Source: Microbulbifer pacificus (GTDB lineage: Bacteria; Pseudomonadota; Gammaproteobacteria; Pseudomonadales; Cellvibrionaceae). From it: 64,000 nucleotides of DNA. Each line of letters starts with the position of its first letter. Within the stretch, counting starts at the first letter, position 1. The translations under genes and the position numbers were made by a program. Location: contig NZ_CP137555.1 of NCBI RefSeq assembly GCF_033723955.1, forward strand, positions 2,224,001 to 2,288,000. Direction: 5' to 3'. Positions 9,125 through 52,371 of this stretch are shown here, piece after piece. A model generated the notes under the pieces. It had not been told where the DNA came from. It worked only from the letters and a program-made list of their open reading frames with translations, and did no database searches.

Positions 9125-11461
9125 TCAGAAACTGCCTCGCAGGGTCAAACCGTAGGTGCGGGGATAGGAAACATACGCATTGTAGTCCCCCGCCTGTAGT
9201 GGCGAGTCGAAGTGCACGCTGGCGTAGCGGTTGTCGCTGCAGTTCTGGCACCAGGCAGACAGCGACCAGCTGGTGGAATCCGGGCGCAGCCCGATATTCG
9301 CGGCGTACTCACTCTGCGCGTCGACCTTAAGGTTGTTGGAGGTGTTGGAATAGATTTCGGAGTTGTACACCATCCCCACACGGCCAAACAGATTCAGGCC
9401 AGTGGCGATGGGACGCTCGAAATCGAGAGCCAGGTTCGCAGACAGATTCGGTGCCATGGCAAATTCGCGGTCGGCGAGAATGCCCAATACCGGATCGTCG
9501 CCAAAGCGCGCTTCCGCCAGGTGCGTGAGGTCAAACATCAGCGAAAAGGTGTCGTTCAACACGAACTGGTTTTCCAGCTCCAGGCCGTAGACCGTCGCCT
9601 CTGGCGCATTGTCGACACTGAAGCGGGTGCCCTGGAACTGCGCCAGCTGCAGGTCTTCGATGTCGTTGTAGAACACTGCGAAGTTGCTGCGCGCGCGCCC
9701 GTTCCAGTATTCGGTTTTCAGGCCCAGCTCGTAGCCATCCATATATTCGGCGCGGTAGGTTGGATCCCCCGGTATCGCACCGGGAACCTCTTCCGGGTTG
9801 TTCAGGTTGGTGCCGGCGCCGCTGTTGTCGATGTTCACCCCACCGGACTTGTAACCGCGGCTGTAGGAGGCGTAACCCATCACCTGCCCGGTGAAGTGGT
9901 ATTGCGCTGACAGCGAACCGCTGAAGGCGTCCTCCTCGTAGTGATCGTCAAACTCCGGCCCGGGCTGGGCGGTGAGCACCCGGAATACGGCGTTGGGCGC
10001 GGGGGTGAATGCATTGCGGAACATGGCGCCGTTCTTCTCGTCGCGGGAATAGCGCAGGCCAACGGTCAGCCCGAACTGTTCATTGACGTCCAGGTTCCAG
10101 TGCGTAAAGGCGGCGTGGGAGCGGCTGTCTGCGGGCATGTCCACATCGCTCCACTGTCCTTCGGTGGCATCCACGGTGCCGGCGGGAAAGCCATAGAGCT
10201 GGGTAAACAGGGTATCCCAGTAGAACTGTGCCTGGTCGCCCCACCAGAGTTCGTGGTGCGCATCGATGTCTTCATCGGCGTAATACGCTCCAACCACATA
10301 GTCGCCGCCAGAAAAGGGACCGAAACTTTCCACATCACCATTCAGGGTGAACTCCTGGGAAATCATCTTGGTTCTGAGGGATTCACTGATGGAGAGGATA
10401 TTGGCGCCGACAAAATCCGCATCCATGCCCTGCTGGGAGATGCGCCAGTCGCGAATGCTGGACACGGACTTGAGCGTGCGCCCGCCGTCCAGCTCCCAGG
10501 CCATGTGCAGTACCGCGCCCTTGTCGTCGATGGACTGGTCGGTGGGGTTACTCAGCACCTGCTGGTAGTCCTTCAGATTTTCCGACGGCAATTGTTTGCC
10601 CTGCGCCAGTACCAGTGCATTGATAAATGGCTGGGTGGGGCCGTCGATGGCGTCCACCTGGCCGTAACAGCAGTTATTCTGCTCGTCGAACCAGTCGATA
10701 ATCAGGCGGCTCGAAAAGGTCTCTGAGGGTTGGTACAGGAACTGAACCTTGGCGCCGCGAGGCTCGCGACCGTTGTATTCACCGCCGTTGGGGTCCTCGA
10801 TATAGCCGTCTTCGCTGCCCCAGATGGCGGCCACGCGCATGGCCGCTTTGTCGCTCAGTGGCACGTTGGTGGCACCGCGCACCAGCTGGTTGCCGTAGTT
10901 GCCGACCCCCACTTCATAATCCACGCTGAAGTCATCGGTGGTCGGCGCCTTGCTGTTGAGGATCAGGGCGCCGGCGGAGGTATTCTTGCCGAACAGCGTG
11001 CCCTGCGGGCCGCGCAGAATCTCCAGGCTCTCCATATCCAGCCAGTTCTGCATGGCCTGGCCGGCGCGGGTGCGATAGACACCGTCCACAAACACGCCCA
11101 CCGCGCCCTCGAACGCGCGGCTGTTGCCCACGGTGCCGATACCGCGGATCACGATATTGGCGCTGTTGGCGGCGCTGTTGACCACCGCAAAGCGGGTGCT
11201 GGAGGAGATCTGCTGGATGTTCGCAATGCTGTCCACCTGGGCGGCAGCCAGCTCGTCGCCGGTGACCGCGGTGACGGCCACCGGCACTTCCTGCAGGTTT
11301 TCTTCGCGGCGCTGGGCGGTAACCACCACCTCTTCCAGCTGGCGCGCCTCCTGGGCGGATACCGCGAACGGCACCGCCGCGGCAATTGCCGCCGCCAGTG
11401 CGGTAGTTGCTACGGTCAGGTTGCGCAGGAAAGGATTGTCGTACGTATGCTTAGTAGCCAT
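9125..11461 (-). CDS. TonB-dependent outer-membrane receptor
   Basis: A 778-residue receptor. The ATG at 11461 is preceded by GAGAGGGAAG and gives a signal peptide ending near AVSAQ. A TonB box (LEEVVVTAQ) and plug domain follow (VPVAVTAVTGDEL, then VDGVYRTRAGQA), then a 22-strand-type barrel ending in the aromatic terminus GLTLRGSF, needed for BAM assembly. It belongs to the large proteobacterial TonB receptor group common for plant or terpenoid compounds, but ligand specificity is not readable. It heads a minus-strand operon with two MpaB-type oxygenases, suggesting import of a hydrophobic or bulky substrate for oxidation. Upstream it diverges from VF530. Confidence 0.92.
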   Translation of the reverse strand: MATKHTYDNPFLRNLTVATTALAAAIAAAVPFAVSAQEARQLEEVVVTAQRREENLQEVPVAVTAVTGDELAAAQVDSIANIQQISSSTRFAVVNSAANSANIVIRGIGTVGNSRAFEGAVGVFVDGVYRTRAGQAMQNWLDMESLEILRGPQGTLFGKNTSAGALILNSKAPTTDDFSVDYEVGVGNYGNQLVRGATNVPLSDKAAMRVAAIWGSEDGYIEDPNGGEYNGREPRGAKVQFLYQPSETFSSRLIIDWFDEQNNCCYGQVDAIDGPTQPFINALVLAQGKQLPSENLKDYQQVLSNPTDQSIDDKGAVLHMAWELDGGRTLKSVSSIRDWRISQQGMDADFVGANILSISESLRTKMISQEFTLNGDVESFGPFSGGDYVVGAYYADEDIDAHHELWWGDQAQFYWDTLFTQLYGFPAGTVDATEGQWSDVDMPADSRSHAAFTHWNLDVNEQFGLTVGLRYSRDEKNGAMFRNAFTPAPNAVFRVLTAQPGPEFDDHYEEDAFSGSLSAQYHFTGQVMGYASYSRGYKSGGVNIDNSGAGTNLNNPEEVPGAIPGDPTYRAEYMDGYELGLKTEYWNGRARSNFAVFYNDIEDLQLAQFQGTRFSVDNAPEATVYGLELENQFVLNDTFSLMFDLTHLAEARFGDDPVLGILADREFAMAPNLSANLALDFERPIATGLNLFGRVGMVYNSEIYSNTSNNLKVDAQSEYAANIGLRPDSTSWSLSAWCQNCSDNRYASVHFDSPLQAGDYNAYVSYPRTYGLTLRGSF

Positions 11462-43052: not shown

Positions 43053-46000
43053 ATGAAGATAAAAACGCTGAGTAGCGCCGTCGCTGCCGCGTTGTACAGT
43101 CTTGGGGCCATGCACAGCGTTCACGCGGCAGGGCAGGAAAAGGCGGAGCTCAAGACACTGGATCTGAGCCTGCCCGTATACCAGGAATACAAGGCGCAAT
43201 ATCAGAAAAACCAGGTGCTGGAAAATAATGGAGCCAATATCCAGCTCCAAAATGCACGCACCAATCAGAAATTTTTGCGTGAGGAAGGCCTCACCGGTAC
43301 GTACAAATATTTCGTGCGCCTGAAGGACCTGCCTGCTGCCGTGTACGACGGTGGTGTCGACGGCCTGGCCAGCACCAAGGATTTGCTGAAAACCGGCGTC
43401 AAAGCCCGCGGCAACAGCACGCTGAACGCCTACACCAGCCATCTGCAATCCAAACAACAGGCGCTGGTTAGCCAGGCGGCCGGCAAAGGTGTCCACCTGC
43501 AGGTGCTGGAAAGTTTCCAGGTCGCGCTGAACGCGGTGACCGCAGAACTGACCCAGGATGAAGCCGAGGCACTGTCCCAGCTGCCGAACGTGGCGGGCGT
43601 GGAGCGCGTACGCATCTACGAGCTGGATACCGATGTGGGTCCGGAATTTGTTGGCGCCGGTGCCGCCTGGGAAGGCAACAATGCCGTTGGCGGCCGCTTT
43701 ATGGGTGAGGGCATCGTTGCTGGTATCCTCGATACTGGTGTGAATACCGACCACCCGTCCTTCGCCGCCACCGGCGACGACGGCTACACCGTGCAGAATC
43801 CGCTGGGCAGCGACATTTATCTGCACGACTGTGCGGTAGATGGCCAGGCCGAGCTGTGTAACAGCAAGCTGATCGGTGTCTGGTCCCACCCCACCATTAC
43901 CGACAGCTACCGCGGTCCCGAGCGTTGCACCGCCCGTGGCTGTACCCCGGGCCCGATTCTGCGTCCGCCGATCGGTGAGGACTACGCAGGCCACGGTTCC
44001 CACACCGCCAGCACCGTCGCCGGCAACGTGATCTACAACGCACCCTATGTGCTGCCGGAAGCGGCCGAGGCCAGCGACGGCTTTGATACCGGATTCAAGT
44101 TCGAAAAAGTGTCCGGCATGGCGCCGCACGCCAACATCATTTCCTACCAGGTCTGCTACCCGGAAGCCGGCTGTCCGGCGGATGCACTGGTGGCCGGTAT
44201 TGAGCAGGCCATCCAGGACGGCGTAGACGTTATCAACTACTCCATCAGCGGCGGTGTCGACCCGTGGAACAGCTCTACCGAGCTGGCGTTCCTGGCGGCG
44301 CGCGAAGCGGGTATCAGTGTGGCGGCCTCAGCCGGCAACGCGGGCCCGAAACTCCTGACCGCGAACCATGTGTCCCCCTGGCTGACCAGCGTCGCGGCGA
44401 CCACCCATACCCGCGAGATGGCGATTGAAACCGCGGTGAGCTATGCCGGTTTCATCGACCCGGCCGCTGGCAGTGAAGTACCGGACTGGGCCGAGACCGG
44501 CCTCGTCGGCGGCTCGCTGAACCCGGAAGAAATCACCGGTGTGGTGGTGTGGGCCAAGGACTACGCCGATGCCGAGGGTGTGAAAGACAACAACGGCTAC
44601 TGCGCCACCCCCTACGCGCCGGGTACCTTTGATTTCTACAAGGACGGTACGGCGATCACAGATCCGGCCACCGGCGCCACCGCGGCCGACGGCGGCGTGA
44701 ATGTGTTTGTGGTGTGTCAGCGCCACGCCGCCAACGACCCCAATGCCAATGCGCGCACCGCCAAGGTGACGATCGTCAAGGCCGGTGGCGCGGACGGCTT
44801 CATCATGTACAACCGCGATCGCGACCAGGGCACCGTGCCCGAGCTCTATGAGCTGCCGTCGGTGCACTTCACCTACGACCAGTGGAACGGGGTCTACCCG
44901 GCCAACGGCCTGGAGGACTGGGTCGACAGCACTTCTGAGCGCGGTCACATGATTACCCTGAGCCCGGCTACCGTGGAGCGCCGCATCGATCCGGCCAACG
45001 CCGATCAGCTGGCGGACTTCTCCTCCCGCGGTCCCTCCCCTATCGCGGCAAACCGCGAAGTGATGGTGCCGAGCCTGGCAGCGCCGGGTGTGGCCATCTA
45101 CGCGGCCTACGCCGACGAACATCCCTTCAGCGAAACCCCTTTCTCTGCGGACTGGGATACCCTGCAGGGTACCTCCATGGCCGCGCCCCACGTTACCGGT
45201 GCGCTGGCGCTGATGACCCAGGCGCACCCGGACTGGACCCCGGCGGAAATCCAGTCTGCACTGCAGATGACCGCAATGGCGGACGTGTTTGACGCCGATA
45301 AAAATCAGGTGGCCAACAGCTGGGCGACCGGTTCCGGACGACTGGATCTGGCGGCGGCGATCGATGCGCAGCTGATCATGGACGTACCGGTGGAACAGTA
45401 CCTCGAAGCCAACCCGGCCAACGGTGGCAACGTCGGTGCGCTGAACACCCCCTACATGATCGACACTAACTGTCGTCTCACCTGCACCTGGATCCGCACC
45501 GTCGAGGCCACCGTCGATGGCACCTGGAACGTTTCCACCAAGACCGGTGAGGCCAGCGTGGCGTTGAGCGCGAGCCCGGCGACCTTCAGCCTGAAAAAAG
45601 GTCAGAAGCAGTCCATCGTGATGACCGGCAAGTGGGTCGATTCCCAGACCCTCACCGATATCCCCTACGGCCTGAGTGTGTTCGGTGAAGTGATGATCGA
45701 AAACGCTGCCACTCCGGGTACTAGCATCGCGCGCATGCCGATGGAGATGGTACTGGCGGAAGGTGACTTGCCGATCGGCGTCGACATTACCGCGCACCGC
45801 GAACAGGACAAATACACACTGTCCGGCCTCGAAACCCGTGATGCGCCGCAGCTCACTGGGCGCGTTTTTGCCAAAACCGCACCGACCATTGAGACCATTG
45901 AGGTACAGCAGCGCGCCAACGGCAACGGTTCCAACCTGTTTACGGTAACCGGTGACGTCGAGGATCCCTCGGTACATGTGTCCTGGGTTTCCGTTCCGGA

Positions 46001-48098
46001 AAATTCGGTACGCCTGATTGCCGAGGTCATCGAGAACCTGCACAGCGACAAGGCTCGCGAAAACGGTCGCTACGGCCAGCTGGGCCTGTACGTGGGTATC
46101 GACCTGAATGGTGACGGTATCCCGCAGTACGATACCGAAGCCGTATGTAAATCTGTCCTGAGCAGTGCCGATGGCAAAGACTGGTGTAACGTCAATTACC
46201 CGGCAGCCGGCAACTACTGGATCGTCTGGCAGAACCACGCGTACAGCGCGGAAGGTTTTGTGGATGATTTCCGCGTGGCTACCGGCGTGGTAAGTGCTAC
46301 CCAGGACAGCGACATGAGCCTGGCAATCCCGTCCAGCACCACCACCGGTGAAGCATTCGATGCGAGCATCCAGTGGCAGGAGCTGGGCCTGGCCAAGGGC
46401 GAGTTCTTCTACAGCGCCTTCGATCTGGGAAGCAGCCCCGCCAACGCGGGCAACCTGGGCATGGTGCCGTTCAAGATCATCCGCGGTGACAATGATGTGG
46501 CGATCGAGAGCAGCCAGACCCGCGCACGCGCCGGGGATGTAGTGGATGTCACCATCAAGGTGCAGCCGAACCTGTCCGGTTATGACCGCAGCTTCGAACT
46601 GGCCACCGAACTGCCGGAAGGCCTCACACTGGTAAGCGGCAGTGCCACTACCCACAGCGATTACCGGAGTGGTGTGGAAGAGACCACAAACGGACTGAAG
46701 GTGACCGGTGTACAGCCCAGCTCCGTGGACTGGAAACCGGAGTACGTGGTTACCAACTCGCGCGACGACAGCATGTGCCGTACTCCGAACGTGGGCGTTG
46801 GTAATGGTGGCTACATCGACCTCAAGGAAGTGGGTATCTACCCGAGCTCCTTCTTCAGCACCACCTACACGGAAGGCCCCACCCCGCTGCCGTTCAACTG
46901 GGTTTGGCCGGAGTTCGGTGACTACGCGTTCTACATGAACAAAGAGGCACCATCTATCGCCAGCGATGGTCTGTTCGTGCACCCGAATGGCGCCATCGAT
47001 CTCAACGGCATGTTGAGCTTTTTCGGTTCCAACACCTGGTTTGGTGAGGAGCGCCCCTATCAGTGGGGTACCCCGGTACAGGTCGTCGGCGGCCTCTGGT
47101 TCGGTGAACCGGGTGTGCTCTTCGGCGCACCGTACAACCCGAGCAACGACGACGAGGTGAACTCCGGCACTACCCTCGCCTTTACCGACAACCACCTGTT
47201 TGTCGAGTGGGACCGCCTGAGCAACCTGGACATCAGCACCATGCAGCCCACGGATAACAACTTCGATGTGGAGTTCATCCTGAGCCGCGGTTACAACCAC
47301 AGTGAAGGCGCGTACGAAATGTACCTGGCCTACGACAACCTGAACTGGGGCTCCCAGGTCAGTGGCTACCGCACTGTGGGCAATGGCGCCTCGGCCGGTG
47401 TCCGCGGCCTCAAATCACCGACCACGCAAATCGGTGGCTATGGTAAGTACGGAGACCTGTCCACAAACATCGGCAGTGGCAACCTGTACGACGTACTCCA
47501 CGACAACCAGGTGTTCTGTTTTGACTACCGCGGCCCGGAAACTTCGGCTTTCGAAGTATCCTTCCAGGTTCGCGTGAAAGGCGAAGCAACCGGTACCGTG
47601 CAGACCATCGACGTAGCCAATGCCGTTGACGGTCTCGACACTCTGCAGGTCGTTACCGACATCACCGTGCCCGGCAATATCACCCTGGGTGAAATTGCCG
47701 ATCAGCAGGTGAACGAGGACGAAGTGCTGAAGGGTATTACCGTGCTCTACGCCGACAATGACAACGGCAACAACGTCATCACCGTAACCGGTGACAACGT
47801 CACCGCCGACGTTCACGGCAATGAGTCCGGTGCGACCTTCGACCTGATGCCGGCAGAAAACTTCGATGGCACCACCGAAGTCACCGTCACGGTAACGGAC
47901 GCACTGTTCCCGAGTGATACGGCCTCCACTACCTTCACCCTGACCGTGGTATCCGACGGTGTGGATGAGTCTGTGGTTGAGGAAGTCGTAGTCGAGGAAA
48001 AACCCAAGAAGAAGAAAAAAGGTGGTTCCGTGTACTACCTGCTGGCCCTGCTCGCCGCAGCGGGTCAGATCCGTCGTCGCAAGCTCGCGTTGCGTTGA
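43053..48098 (+). CDS. Giant S8 family serine protease with GlyGly-CTERM sorting tail, copy 2
   Basis: A 1681-residue tandem paralogue of the previous gene, collinear throughout. The triad falls on identical residue numbers, Asp227, His314 and Ser708 (here GTSMAAPH instead of GTSMSAPH). Signal peptide, propeptide, PA insertion, cadherin-like domain and the tail KKKKKGGSVYYLLALLA with RRRK are all kept. The strongest divergence is in the region between the PA domain and the C terminus (e.g. residues about 1290-1430). Shared Cys in LHDCAVDGQ, AELC and CYPEAGCP suggest common disulfides. Both copies look intact, so they may have split substrate preference or simply raise dosage. The ATG follows CGGGAGTAGCC. 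Confidence 0.93.
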   Translation: MKIKTLSSAVAAALYSLGAMHSVHAAGQEKAELKTLDLSLPVYQEYKAQYQKNQVLENNGANIQLQNARTNQKFLREEGLTGTYKYFVRLKDLPAAVYDGGVDGLASTKDLLKTGVKARGNSTLNAYTSHLQSKQQALVSQAAGKGVHLQVLESFQVALNAVTAELTQDEAEALSQLPNVAGVERVRIYELDTDVGPEFVGAGAAWEGNNAVGGRFMGEGIVAGILDTGVNTDHPSFAATGDDGYTVQNPLGSDIYLHDCAVDGQAELCNSKLIGVWSHPTITDSYRGPERCTARGCTPGPILRPPIGEDYAGHGSHTASTVAGNVIYNAPYVLPEAAEASDGFDTGFKFEKVSGMAPHANIISYQVCYPEAGCPADALVAGIEQAIQDGVDVINYSISGGVDPWNSSTELAFLAAREAGISVAASAGNAGPKLLTANHVSPWLTSVAATTHTREMAIETAVSYAGFIDPAAGSEVPDWAETGLVGGSLNPEEITGVVVWAKDYADAEGVKDNNGYCATPYAPGTFDFYKDGTAITDPATGATAADGGVNVFVVCQRHAANDPNANARTAKVTIVKAGGADGFIMYNRDRDQGTVPELYELPSVHFTYDQWNGVYPANGLEDWVDSTSERGHMITLSPATVERRIDPANADQLADFSSRGPSPIAANREVMVPSLAAPGVAIYAAYADEHPFSETPFSADWDTLQGTSMAAPHVTGALALMTQAHPDWTPAEIQSALQMTAMADVFDADKNQVANSWATGSGRLDLAAAIDAQLIMDVPVEQYLEANPANGGNVGALNTPYMIDTNCRLTCTWIRTVEATVDGTWNVSTKTGEASVALSASPATFSLKKGQKQSIVMTGKWVDSQTLTDIPYGLSVFGEVMIENAATPGTSIARMPMEMVLAEGDLPIGVDITAHREQDKYTLSGLETRDAPQLTGRVFAKTAPTIETIEVQQRANGNGSNLFTVTGDVEDPSVHVSWVSVPENSVRLIAEVIENLHSDKARENGRYGQLGLYVGIDLNGDGIPQYDTEAVCKSVLSSADGKDWCNVNYPAAGNYWIVWQNHAYSAEGFVDDFRVATGVVSATQDSDMSLAIPSSTTTGEAFDASIQWQELGLAKGEFFYSAFDLGSSPANAGNLGMVPFKIIRGDNDVAIESSQTRARAGDVVDVTIKVQPNLSGYDRSFELATELPEGLTLVSGSATTHSDYRSGVEETTNGLKVTGVQPSSVDWKPEYVVTNSRDDSMCRTPNVGVGNGGYIDLKEVGIYPSSFFSTTYTEGPTPLPFNWVWPEFGDYAFYMNKEAPSIASDGLFVHPNGAIDLNGMLSFFGSNTWFGEERPYQWGTPVQVVGGLWFGEPGVLFGAPYNPSNDDEVNSGTTLAFTDNHLFVEWDRLSNLDISTMQPTDNNFDVEFILSRGYNHSEGAYEMYLAYDNLNWGSQVSGYRTVGNGASAGVRGLKSPTTQIGGYGKYGDLSTNIGSGNLYDVLHDNQVFCFDYRGPETSAFEVSFQVRVKGEATGTVQTIDVANAVDGLDTLQVVTDITVPGNITLGEIADQQVNEDEVLKGITVLYADNDNGNNVITVTGDNVTADVHGNESGATFDLMPAENFDGTTEVTVTVTDALFPSDTASTTFTLTVVSDGVDESVVEEVVVEEKPKKKKKGGSVYYLLALLAAAGQIRRRKLALR

Positions 48099-48261: not shown

Positions 48262-49650
48262 ATGAAATATCTGGTTGAGCGCACTTTCATTCAGGTCGCG
48301 ATCGGTGTGCTGTTATTTGTTGCTTCCGAGTGTTTCGCCGCGCCCGCGCAGCCCCTGCATTTTCCCGAGCTACACCCGCCAAGTGCACCGGAGGACGCCG
48401 GATTTTCTTCAAGCAAGCTACAGGAGCTCGATGCCCTGATTTCCCGCGATGTGGCTGCGGGATTTCCCGGTGCGGTGCTGCTTATTATTCGGGATGGGAA
48501 AGTCGTCAAAAATACCAGTTACGGTTATCGGCAGAAATTCTCCGGTGCAAAACCGCTGGAAAATTTCGCTCCAATGACCACAGGCACGCTGTTTGATCTG
48601 GCGTCCAACACAAAAATGTATGCGACGAATTTTGCCTTGCAGAAACTCGTCAGCGAAGGTCGGCTGGATTTGCAGGCAAACGTGCGCGAATACCTGCCCG
48701 AATTTCGCGACCAGGAATCCGATGCCATCAAGGGTAAAAACGAACTGAGAATTGCGGATATCCTGCACCACAGCGCAGGGTTTATGCCCGACCCGCAATA
48801 TCACAATCAAGCCGTGGCAAAATCGCTTTACTCGCAGGACAGAAGTGTCACCTCACGCCTGATTTCACAGACACCACTGGCTTACCCACCGGGAACGGCC
48901 AACGTCTACAGCGATGTGGACTACATGCTGCTCGGTGAGATTATCGAGCGTGTTACTGGTCAGATGCTTGACGAATATGTGGAGCAATCCATCTACGCGC
49001 CACTGGGGTTGAAACACACGCGTTTTAATCCCCTGCAAAAAGGCTTTGCGCCCGCAGACTTCGCAGCGACGGAGCTTCAGGGCAACACCCGCGATGGTAG
49101 TATCACATTCCCCAATATCCGTACCGACACATTGCTCGGCCAGGTGCACGACGAAAAGGCGTTCTATTCCATGGCGGGTGTGTCCGGTCACGCGGGCTTG
49201 TTCTCCACGTCTGCAGATTTGGCGGTGCTGCTCCAGGTAATGCTCAATGGTGGCGGCTATGGTTCAGTTTCGCTGTTTAATCGCCAGACCATCTCGGAAT
49301 TTACCTCCCCCGCGGAAGCCGATCCCACCTTTGCCCTCGGCTGGCGCACCAATGGCAATGCCAGCATGCAATGGATGTTCGGGGAATACGCCAGCAATCG
49401 CGCCTACGGGCATACCGGCTGGACCGGCACCCTCACGATCATCGACCCTGAGTACAATCTTGGTATTGTGCTGCTCACCAACAAGAAGCATTCACCCGTT
49501 ATCAAGTCGGGATCCAATTCGGGAAAATTTATCGGGGATTTATTTGCGACTGGCCGTTACGGCGAGGTGGTATCGGGGGTTTACCGGGCAATGGGAATTT
49601 CTCAGGATCAGGGCTCGTCTGATCGGCTCATTGGCACCGGGCCAAAATAA
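48262..49650 (+). CDS. Serine hydrolase of the PBP4B (YfeW) type, beta-lactamase fold
   Basis: A 462-residue exported class C-like hydrolase. Signal peptide ends near FAAPAQ. Catalytic SxxK is Ser115-Lys118 in LASNTKMYATN, the second motif is Tyr216 in VYSDVDY and the third is His384 in GHTGWTG. The DLASNTKMYATN and ADILHHSAGF text is close to E. coli YfeW (PBP4B), a D,D-carboxypeptidase-like protein. It may also be an esterase. The ATG follows AAGGGGCCAT. It is alone after the proteases' terminator. Confidence 0.85.
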   Translation: MKYLVERTFIQVAIGVLLFVASECFAAPAQPLHFPELHPPSAPEDAGFSSSKLQELDALISRDVAAGFPGAVLLIIRDGKVVKNTSYGYRQKFSGAKPLENFAPMTTGTLFDLASNTKMYATNFALQKLVSEGRLDLQANVREYLPEFRDQESDAIKGKNELRIADILHHSAGFMPDPQYHNQAVAKSLYSQDRSVTSRLISQTPLAYPPGTANVYSDVDYMLLGEIIERVTGQMLDEYVEQSIYAPLGLKHTRFNPLQKGFAPADFAATELQGNTRDGSITFPNIRTDTLLGQVHDEKAFYSMAGVSGHAGLFSTSADLAVLLQVMLNGGGYGSVSLFNRQTISEFTSPAEADPTFALGWRTNGNASMQWMFGEYASNRAYGHTGWTGTLTIIDPEYNLGIVLLTNKKHSPVIKSGSNSGKFIGDLFATGRYGEVVSGVYRAMGISQDQGSSDRLIGTGPK

Positions 49651-49795: not shown

Positions 49796-50131
49796 TCATT
49801 GGTTGTCAGAAAAATAATAATCATTTTGATTGCGCCAGCTTATCCTTACAAAACTCCCACCAACAAGACCACTTTCTCGAAGGTATTCAAAAACTTCGGC
49901 AGGACTCCATTCTCTTCCGCTTGCAAAGGCAACATTGAGATCCCTGAGTTTTTCAAATATCGTTGCTTTGTCGTTTTTGTCTTTTGTTTCATACATGTAG
50001 TTATGTGTTTTTGGGTCTAATGAAAATCCAATTGAAGTAAGTTTTTCTTCGATAGGCTTTAATATCGGTTTTACGGAAATGGTTTTCCCATCAGCTTTGT
50101 GTACATAAGCACTAATTTTTACATGGTTCAC
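49796..50131 (-). CDS. Candidate immunity protein for the adjacent polymorphic toxin
   Basis: A 111-residue soluble protein with no recognised family. It begins with a GTG overlapping the toxin stop (GTGA), with GAGG about ten bases upstream. Its composition is AT-rich and hydrophilic (IEEKLTSIGFSLDP, YMYETKDKNDKATIFEKL), unlike the GC-rich neighbours. A small unrelated gene directly and overlappingly downstream of a toxin-like gene is the usual toxin-immunity layout. Absence of a signal peptide suggests that the toxin acts in the cytoplasm. Function is inferred. Confidence 0.55.
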   Translation of the reverse strand: MNHVKISAYVHKADGKTISVKPILKPIEEKLTSIGFSLDPKTHNYMYETKDKNDKATIFEKLRDLNVAFASGREWSPAEVFEYLRESGLVGGSFVRISWRNQNDYYFSDNQ

Positions 50132-51771
50132 CGTACGTATACCTCTAATAAAGTGGAGACACCATTCCCGTCGGTAGTCGGGATTGAGTCAATAACAATT
50201 TCAGGTGCGCCACCGGGAAGGTGATTCCCTGGGCCTAGAAAATATTCATTACCTTCTAAAGGGCTTCGCGACATCCTATCAATTACGTTTTCAATTTTTC
50301 GAACTTTAAAGCCGTCATTCAACGTTCCAGGAGTCAGCCCAAAGGCTTCTTCCAGCTCAGTCGCCTTTTTCTTGCTAATTACTGCTGGTGATTTTTCTGG
50401 AAGTTTCCCGAGAACGTCCGTAATTCCTTGCATGTCGGAAATAAATGTTCCGTTACGACCGATTGTGGGGTACTCATCCCATTCTGTCGGGCTAACATTG
50501 AACCCTATGTTATCTTCAAGCATCCTTTTTTGGCGCTCTCTTGCTTGAAGTATTGTTTCTTTGATTTCCAGGTCCTGAACTTTTATATCAGAGCTATCTT
50601 TTGATTTTTTAACACTGGCAGGACGACTTATTCCAAAGTCATTGATTGGGGGCGGAACGTCTAATTTTGGGAGTTCGTCTAGTGTGACCTGGGCTTTCTT
50701 ATGTTCCAAGTGCGAAAATTTTTTCGACATGGAACGTAGGCTTTTTGTATTCTCGGCGAAACTTTCTAGAAATTTTCCCACTTGCCGGAATTTTACCATG
50801 TGCCGAGTTAAATTTGAGCTTCCCAGCGCGAGCCCGGCTCCAGCGGTTACCGCCGCAAGTACTATGGTGAACAACACCTCAAACGCGGCACCACCCGAAA
50901 GCTCGGTAATCTCTAGCGCGTGCTGCGCGGCAGCGTAATCTTTCACAAAGCGACGCAGGTCTGCCTGCAGTGCGACATCTTCCCAAATGATGCCCGCGAT
51001 TTCCAAGGCGCGGTCGAATTGTTCTCTGGTGATGCTGCCGGGATCGAAGCCCAGAACCTGCACCAGTTCGCGCTTCTCGGCGGTAACCAGTTCATCCCGG
51101 CAGGCTTCGAGGAAACTGGTATTGTTGCTCCGCGTCTTCTGTAGGGCGCGGTAGCTGGCCTGAATTCCACGCAGGCTGCGCTGGACCGGATTGAGGCAGT
51201 CGTTGACGTCTTTTAGCCACTGGGTCAAATCTGTACCGGCGTCCCACAGGCCGGTGAGAAAGGCGCCGGTGTAGATCATGCCGCGGTTTACGGTGGTCTC
51301 CCTGCGCAGGTTTTGTGTGTGGTGGGCGGCCTCGGCCTTTTCTGCGGCGACGATGCCGGCGAGCGCAATGCGAATTTTGCTGCGGAGAACGCCCCGGTTG
51401 TCCGCCTCGGGCTTTTCAGCCGGCTTCTGTTTGGTCGAATTGATTTTGCTGAAACTGAGTTCGCCGTGATAAATGGCGTCCAGTATCAGCGCCCACCTGC
51501 CCTGGAGTTGCAGTGGAAGGGCGGTGGCGGAAGGAAGCGGATGCGGGTGAAATTCCCAGCCATTGCCCAGCCGATGTCGCAAGCGCTGAAAAAGCTCGGT
51601 GTTGTGAAAGTGGAAAACGGCCTGTTCCGCTCTGAACAGCTCATCGCCATTCAAATGTGGAAGGGCATCCAGTGCGCCCCGGTACTGGTCCGGGCCGGTG
51701 GAATTTAGCCAGTGACCGGAGGAAATAGCGTAGGTATTCCCGCGGTTGTCCGTGAGCTGGTAAATCGACAT
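50128..51771 (-). CDS. Polymorphic-toxin-like protein with hydrophobic delivery region
   Basis: A 547-residue multi-domain protein. Residues 1-120 are a globular N-terminal domain (MSIYQLTDNRGNTYAIS). A middle region from about 160 to 340 contains GMIYTGAFLTGLWDAGTDL and a hydrophobic stretch AFEVLFTIVLAAVTAGAG, which resembles the translocation part of delivered effectors. A charged linker (about 370-420) leads to a C-terminal domain of about 120 residues ending GPGNHLPGGAPEIVI. This last part is clearly more AT-rich than the first half, a mark of exchangeable toxin tips. I do not recognise the toxin family. No PAAR, Rhs or VgrG partner lies in the window. Confidence 0.65.
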   Translation of the reverse strand: MSIYQLTDNRGNTYAISSGHWLNSTGPDQYRGALDALPHLNGDELFRAEQAVFHFHNTELFQRLRHRLGNGWEFHPHPLPSATALPLQLQGRWALILDAIYHGELSFSKINSTKQKPAEKPEADNRGVLRSKIRIALAGIVAAEKAEAAHHTQNLRRETTVNRGMIYTGAFLTGLWDAGTDLTQWLKDVNDCLNPVQRSLRGIQASYRALQKTRSNNTSFLEACRDELVTAEKRELVQVLGFDPGSITREQFDRALEIAGIIWEDVALQADLRRFVKDYAAAQHALEITELSGGAAFEVLFTIVLAAVTAGAGLALGSSNLTRHMVKFRQVGKFLESFAENTKSLRSMSKKFSHLEHKKAQVTLDELPKLDVPPPINDFGISRPASVKKSKDSSDIKVQDLEIKETILQARERQKRMLEDNIGFNVSPTEWDEYPTIGRNGTFISDMQGITDVLGKLPEKSPAVISKKKATELEEAFGLTPGTLNDGFKVRKIENVIDRMSRSPLEGNEYFLGPGNHLPGGAPEIVIDSIPTTDGNGVSTLLEVYVR

Positions 51772-51981: not shown

Positions 51982-52371
51982 TCAGGGCAGCGGTCGCGTA
52001 CGCCCGCGATCGTCGATGGCGACAAAGACGAATTCACCCTCGGTCACTTTCACCTGCTCGCCGGTGTCGACCCGGGTCAGCCAGACTTCCACCATGGTCT
52101 TGATGGAAGAGCGCCCCACTTCGATGGCTTCGGCGTAGCAGCTTACGGTGGAGCCGACAGGTACCGGGCGCAGGAACACCATGCTGCCGACGGCGACGGT
52201 AGTGACACGGCCGCGGGCGATGCTCTGGGCGAGGATGGCGCCGCCGAGATCCATCTGCGACATCAGCCAGCCGGCGAAAACATCACCCTGGGGGTTGGTG
52301 TCGCGGGGCATGGACTGGGTTTGCAGGGTCAGGGTGCCGCTGGGTTGCGGTTCTTCATCAATGGCGGACAT
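51982..52371 (-). CDS. yciA: Acyl-CoA thioesterase YciA
   Basis: A 129-residue single hotdog-fold thioesterase. Family text: LQTQSMPRDTNPQGDVFAGWLMSQMD, with the Asn/Asp of the active site, AVGSMVFLRPVPVG and VTEGEFVFVAID. YciA hydrolyses a broad range of acyl-CoAs in the cytoplasm. The length is standard. It stands alone, with a 210-bp gap to the toxin gene and 222 bp to the TRAP genes; I see nothing definite in these gaps. Confidence 0.95.
   Translation of the reverse strand: MSAIDEEPQPSGTLTLQTQSMPRDTNPQGDVFAGWLMSQMDLGGAILAQSIARGRVTTVAVGSMVFLRPVPVGSTVSCYAEAIEVGRSSIKTMVEVWLTRVDTGEQVKVTEGEFVFVAIDDRGRTRPLP

Follow-up and report, generated by a model that had tools for sequence, protein, structure and literature searches.

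Among the closest described relatives of the system reported here are two toxin-immunity pairs, Tne5/Tni5 of Pluralibacter gergoviae (PMC13285283) and Tne3/Tni3 of Pseudomonas aeruginosa PALA37 (PMC9846239). Tne3 was read as a nicotinamide adenine dinucleotide (NAD) glycohydrolase (NADase) similar to streptococcal SPN, whereas another paper applies the same name to a different toxin (PMC10539506). Here we analyse two overlapping genes of Microbulbifer pacificus, which look like a polymorphic toxin-immunity pair and lie in a 64,000-nucleotide stretch (contig NZ_CP137555.1, positions 2,224,001 to 2,288,000; hereafter the window). A preliminary description, made from the letters of the sequence, had proposed that a toxin tip had been exchanged along with its immunity gene and had left the tip unrecognised. 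Our analysis supports the exchange and adds two things: the tip is homologous to the NADase toxin Tne5, and the type VI secretion system (T6SS) genes searched for are absent from the genome.

Results

The two overlapping open reading frames (ORFs) exist as the preliminary description had stated, and both are on the minus strand. The toxin gene (50128..51771, start codon ATG) encodes 547 residues and the downstream immunity gene (49796..50131, start codon GTG) 111 residues, with 4 nt in common. A toxin-immunity overlap of 4 nt was present in 13 of the 20 tabulated junctions. The genome contains a single copy of the toxin gene, and the position of the locus is not the same in three congeners.

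The toxin protein can be divided into three parts. Residues 1-317 (50821..51771) comprise the N-terminal part and the delivery module, residues 318-405 (50557..50820) form an AT-rich charged linker, and residues 406-547 with the stop codon (50128..50556) form the tip, a putative NADase-like domain of the ADP-ribosyltransferase (ART) fold. The hydrophobic delivery region and the charged linker of the preliminary description were borne out: hydrophobicity peaks at residues about 291-318, and the charge fraction is 0.33 in residues 318-405 vs 0.25 across the protein. The set of homologues numbers 53 including the toxin itself, 35 with the tip and 18 with the N-terminal part only. One of them, P0002, matches the window toxin at 86-95% identity over four blocks as far as residue 317; beyond this point identity falls to 18-24% in three blocks (21-24% in the linker) and the end is different. 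For P0003, another M. pacificus protein, identity is 35-71% in the N-terminal blocks, drops to 16-30% across the linker and reaches 66% over the tip.

The drop in base composition from the linker through the small gene, which the preliminary description had noted, was also borne out. A change point located from the DNA alone fell at codon 318 (window position 50815), where GC content changes from 0.591 to 0.407 (log-likelihood ratio 33.7 vs at most 12.8 in 200 shuffles). GC content is 0.404 in linker residues 321-405, 0.448 in the tip and 0.363 in the small gene, vs 0.594 in the whole window, and a value as low as that of 49796-50895 occurs in 0.32% of 1258 segments of 1100 nt. The drop thus begins with the linker, about 70-90 residues ahead of most tip alignments, which start at residues 385-410. 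Because the identity blocks of P0002 and P0003 and the GC change point agree, we define the exchanged cassette as the linker, the tip and, by composition, the immunity gene, and we regard the modularity of the toxin and its exchange point as established.

The C-terminal 142 residues are also present on PAAR, RHS, VgrG, PF13665 and DUF6861 proteins, and in two loci (L045 and L047) on proteins with haemagglutinin repeats and DUF637, which we term CdiA-like. A scan of genome contigs yielded 21 tip loci, among them loci in Corallincola, Marinobacter, Pseudomonas, Duganella, Rhodanobacter, Limnobacter, Nitrospirillum, Roseovarius, Aeromonas, Caballeronia, Pectobacterium and two Phocaeicola. Of the 21 tip genomes, 16 have TssC; the remaining ones (L031, L041, L043, L045 and L047) comprise a small metagenome-assembled genome, both Phocaeicola and both CdiA-like cases. 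The distribution is patchy: the M. pacificus genome is the only clear carrier among 293 genomes of its order (two matched at E 0.001, the second of which we took as chance), and in the family of L051 there were 8 matches among 392 genomes at E 0.1, including four below 1e-20. The C-terminal swap on a kept N-terminal part, the occurrence of the tip on several trafficking modules and the linked immunity gene are the features of a polymorphic toxin. We also observed that six proteins (P0045-P0050) have the same RHS end and tip after six different upstream sequences, some with enzyme or receptor domains, joined at a FRYYSP stretch; these junctions are either assembly chimeras or real cassette insertions.

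Linkage of the immunity family to the tip was examined with profiles built without the tested locus and, for L038 and L043, also without the near copy. In this leave-one-out search a member of the 111-residue family lay next to the tip in 27 of the 28 places (the window, L031-L049, L051, L052, L062-L065 and L074), which establishes the linkage; no family member was found at L050, where the tip is cut short. The 111-residue gene was the sole match of its leave-one-out profile among the 493 ORFs of the window. A profile search with the family gave 34 proteins including the query, and in alignment A2 the members are 18-45% identical to the window protein. The structure of the 111-residue protein was predicted with high confidence (predicted local distance difference test, pLDDT, 92.5; predicted template modelling score, pTM, 0.85), and no solved fold in the fold list clearly matched the model. 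The immunity profile matched part of the beta chain of phenylalanyl-tRNA synthetase (2rhq, E 2.5e-4), which is absent from the fold list. At L049, L051 and L052 the frame of the tip is broken and the immunity gene is retained, and L046 contains a second family member (10353-10697). On a Rahnella sikkimica plasmid a Tne5-like tip is followed by an 87-residue gene (L072, 1972-2235). Of the 22 tip loci searched, 5 (L034, L036, L037, L038 and L046) contain relatives of this gene, 43-53% identical, near HLPGG tips accompanied by another immunity gene; perhaps these are stacked orphan immunity genes.

No credible Pfam or NCBIfam family was found for the toxin protein or the 111-residue protein, and in a Pfam search of the tips no match at E 0.5 or better named SPN. 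Homology of the tip to the Tne5 domain was established by profile comparison (hhalign P 4.7e-9, 29% identity over 105 columns; score 53.9 vs at most 20.9 in 100 shuffles). In the fold comparison the best row was the streptococcal SPN NADase with IFS (PDB 4kt6, 3pnt and 7wvh; 117-120 residues, 15-17% identity), and KptA, pertussis toxin S1, DarT1 and PARPs were among the weaker rows. Twenty-five residues are invariant in all 41 aligned tips: N425, S427, P428, D432, Y434, I437, G438, G441, D446, E474, G478, L479, R491, S503, G507, N508, F511, G515, H517, L518, P519, G521, P523, E524 and T532. Four of them, H517, L518, P519 and G521, belong to the GPGNHLPGG motif (residues 513-521, 50209..50235), which the preliminary description had noticed correctly and placed at the C-terminal end; it lies 26 residues before the end. 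E524 is aligned with E1482 of Tne5; since a change of E1482 had little effect in Tne5, where K1392 was more important (PMC13285283), the match is no proof of catalysis. K1392 is aligned with F424, beside the invariant N425, in a low-confidence stretch of the alignment. By our reading the sequence before E524 would be best aligned without gaps, with HLPGG opposite KTSGG, RLPTG or ILPNN of Tne5-like sequences; the PxGxE and WxPGG motifs of Tne3, kept by Tne5-like sequences, would then have been lost in the window tip. Read literally, WxPGG has H517 in place of W in 41/41 tips, and PxGxE was seen in none of 30 tips.

In other genomes the region corresponding to residues about 115-353 lies about 500 residues into VgrG-type proteins and ahead of RHS repeats, and is followed by unrelated ends; the VgrG label is our own reading, which P0041 backs only for the tip. 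TssC was found in 23 of the 26 genomes carrying the N-terminal part vs 66 of the 267 others (Fisher p 1.6e-10, a value which ignores the kinship of the genomes). The carriers without TssC are M. pacificus itself, G269 (the frame ends 7 residues past the match) and G284 (a weak match). As in a cargo effector, the delivery module is shared with VgrG/RHS effectors and goes with T6SS; the machine that such an effector uses was not found in the M. pacificus genome (one contig, rated 100% complete), where searches for TssC, TssK, VgrG, PAAR and phage sheath gave no match. The delivery module also occurs with many other ends, some of which look by eye NADase-, transferase- or nuclease-like (L002, L003, L007, L014, L016, L028, L030 and others).

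The toxin gene is preceded by a thioesterase gene of the same orientation (51982-52371), and downstream of the pair a convergent gene (48262-49650) matches the beta-lactamase family. Further on, a subtilase-like protein of 1681 residues (43053-48098) ends in a glycine pair, a hydrophobic stretch and arginines, by eye similar to a sorting signal.

Discussion

We consider it probable that the two genes encode a polymorphic antibacterial effector and its immunity protein, that the tip is an NAD(P) glycohydrolase of the SPN/Tne5 group, and that the pair is stranded in its own genome. Residues 1-317 would act as a T6SS-type cargo and delivery module, and residues 318-547 with the 111-residue gene as a cassette swapped by recombination. 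We infer that the tip is toxic: as an ART-fold enzyme delivered to the rival cytoplasm, it would cleave NAD(P) to nicotinamide and ADP-ribose and so bring metabolism to a halt, and the 111-residue protein would occlude the cleft of the tip by binding to it. Because no T6SS gene was found in the genome, the pair is probably stranded, either retained when the machine was lost or gained in its absence (both histories fit), and is perhaps useful for its immunity gene.

The hallmark motifs of the NADase branches are altered in the tips and a histidine is invariant, which weighs against an NAD hydrolase, and the weaker fold matches listed above, together with the ART-fold Rhs tip RhsF-CT, which modifies RNA (PMC13324451), suggest an ADP-ribosyltransferase acting on target-cell protein or RNA. 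We think this unlikely, as both the nearest sequence relative and the nearest fold are NAD glycohydrolases and protein ADP-ribosylation by Tne5 was not seen (PMC13285283). It is far less probable still, indeed hardly credible, that the C-terminal domain is not a toxin and that it serves ordinary metabolism as an enzyme paired with a small protein. Toxicity of the tip is indeed an inference and no curated toxin family was matched; the patchy distribution, the attachment to weapon proteins, the fixed pairing and the homology to a proven toxin argue against a metabolic role. The tip aligned with a toxin, Tne5, rather than full-length with a non-toxin enzyme, and the pair is present in many toxin-bearing relatives.

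Two other alternatives concern the fate of the toxin in M. pacificus. It may be an idle relic in its own genome, where only the immunity gene is useful, against neighbours firing the same tip, and we regard the chances of this as evenly balanced. The five unmatched families, the immunity genes retained beside broken tips, the presence of the tip on P0003 and the orphan immunity known in Serratia (PMC10539506) speak for it; against it stands the unbroken toxin frame of 547 codons, in keeping with a recent loss or with ongoing use. The intact frame in a genome lacking the five families, and the use of the same tip by CdiA-like proteins elsewhere, could also mean that the toxin exits the cell by another route, its N-terminal module exporting it without T6SS or contractile tail. 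We judge this improbable: the N-terminal part accompanies TssC in most carrier genomes, and as there was no credible Pfam match, no other export domain was seen in the window toxin. If true, a class of weapons now assigned to T6SS would have a further way out that has gone unrecognised.

The pair is of interest in several respects. It provides a candidate enzyme class, together with a proposed family of cognate antidotes, for a cassette unmatched in Pfam and NCBIfam, which occurs in Pseudomonas, Vibrio, Aeromonas, Pectobacterium, Phocaeicola and others. The SPN/Tne5 group would gain a branch without the hallmark motifs and with a different immunity protein, so that comparison could test which residues NAD hydrolysis requires. 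Since the effector is intact although its machine was not found in the genome, it can also be asked whether such cassettes persist for the immunity gene. We noticed no publication on the tip in the open-licence literature on neighbouring subjects, which does not show that it is unpublished.

It is instructive to compare the pair with the systems named at the outset. With Tne5/Tni5 it shares a homologous tip, the same nearest solved structure, and occurrence on RHS, PAAR and contact-dependent inhibition (CDI) carriers with a small gene downstream (PMC13285283). It differs from Tne5 in having neither PSGNE nor WLPGG, in the invariant H517 and in the lack of a clear equivalent of K1392. The immunity family, of about 110 residues, shows no detectable similarity to proteins encoded after Tne5-like tips: its profile matched four such small proteins at E 0.24 or worse, and hhalign gave a probability of 0.07% against three. 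Tne3/Tni3 resembles the pair in the SPN-like NADase reading and in the PAAR, RHS and CDI-type distribution, whereas the PxGxE and WxPGG motifs of Tne3 are not in the window tip, and Tni3 was reported to be IFS-like (PMC9846239), while the window immunity model gave no clear fold match. SPN itself is toxic to human cells (PMC9846239), whereas the tip type described here is found on antibacterial delivery proteins. The window toxin has no DUF6861 (PF21724) match at E 1, yet some DUF6861 effectors, e.g. L042 and P0030, bear the same tip.
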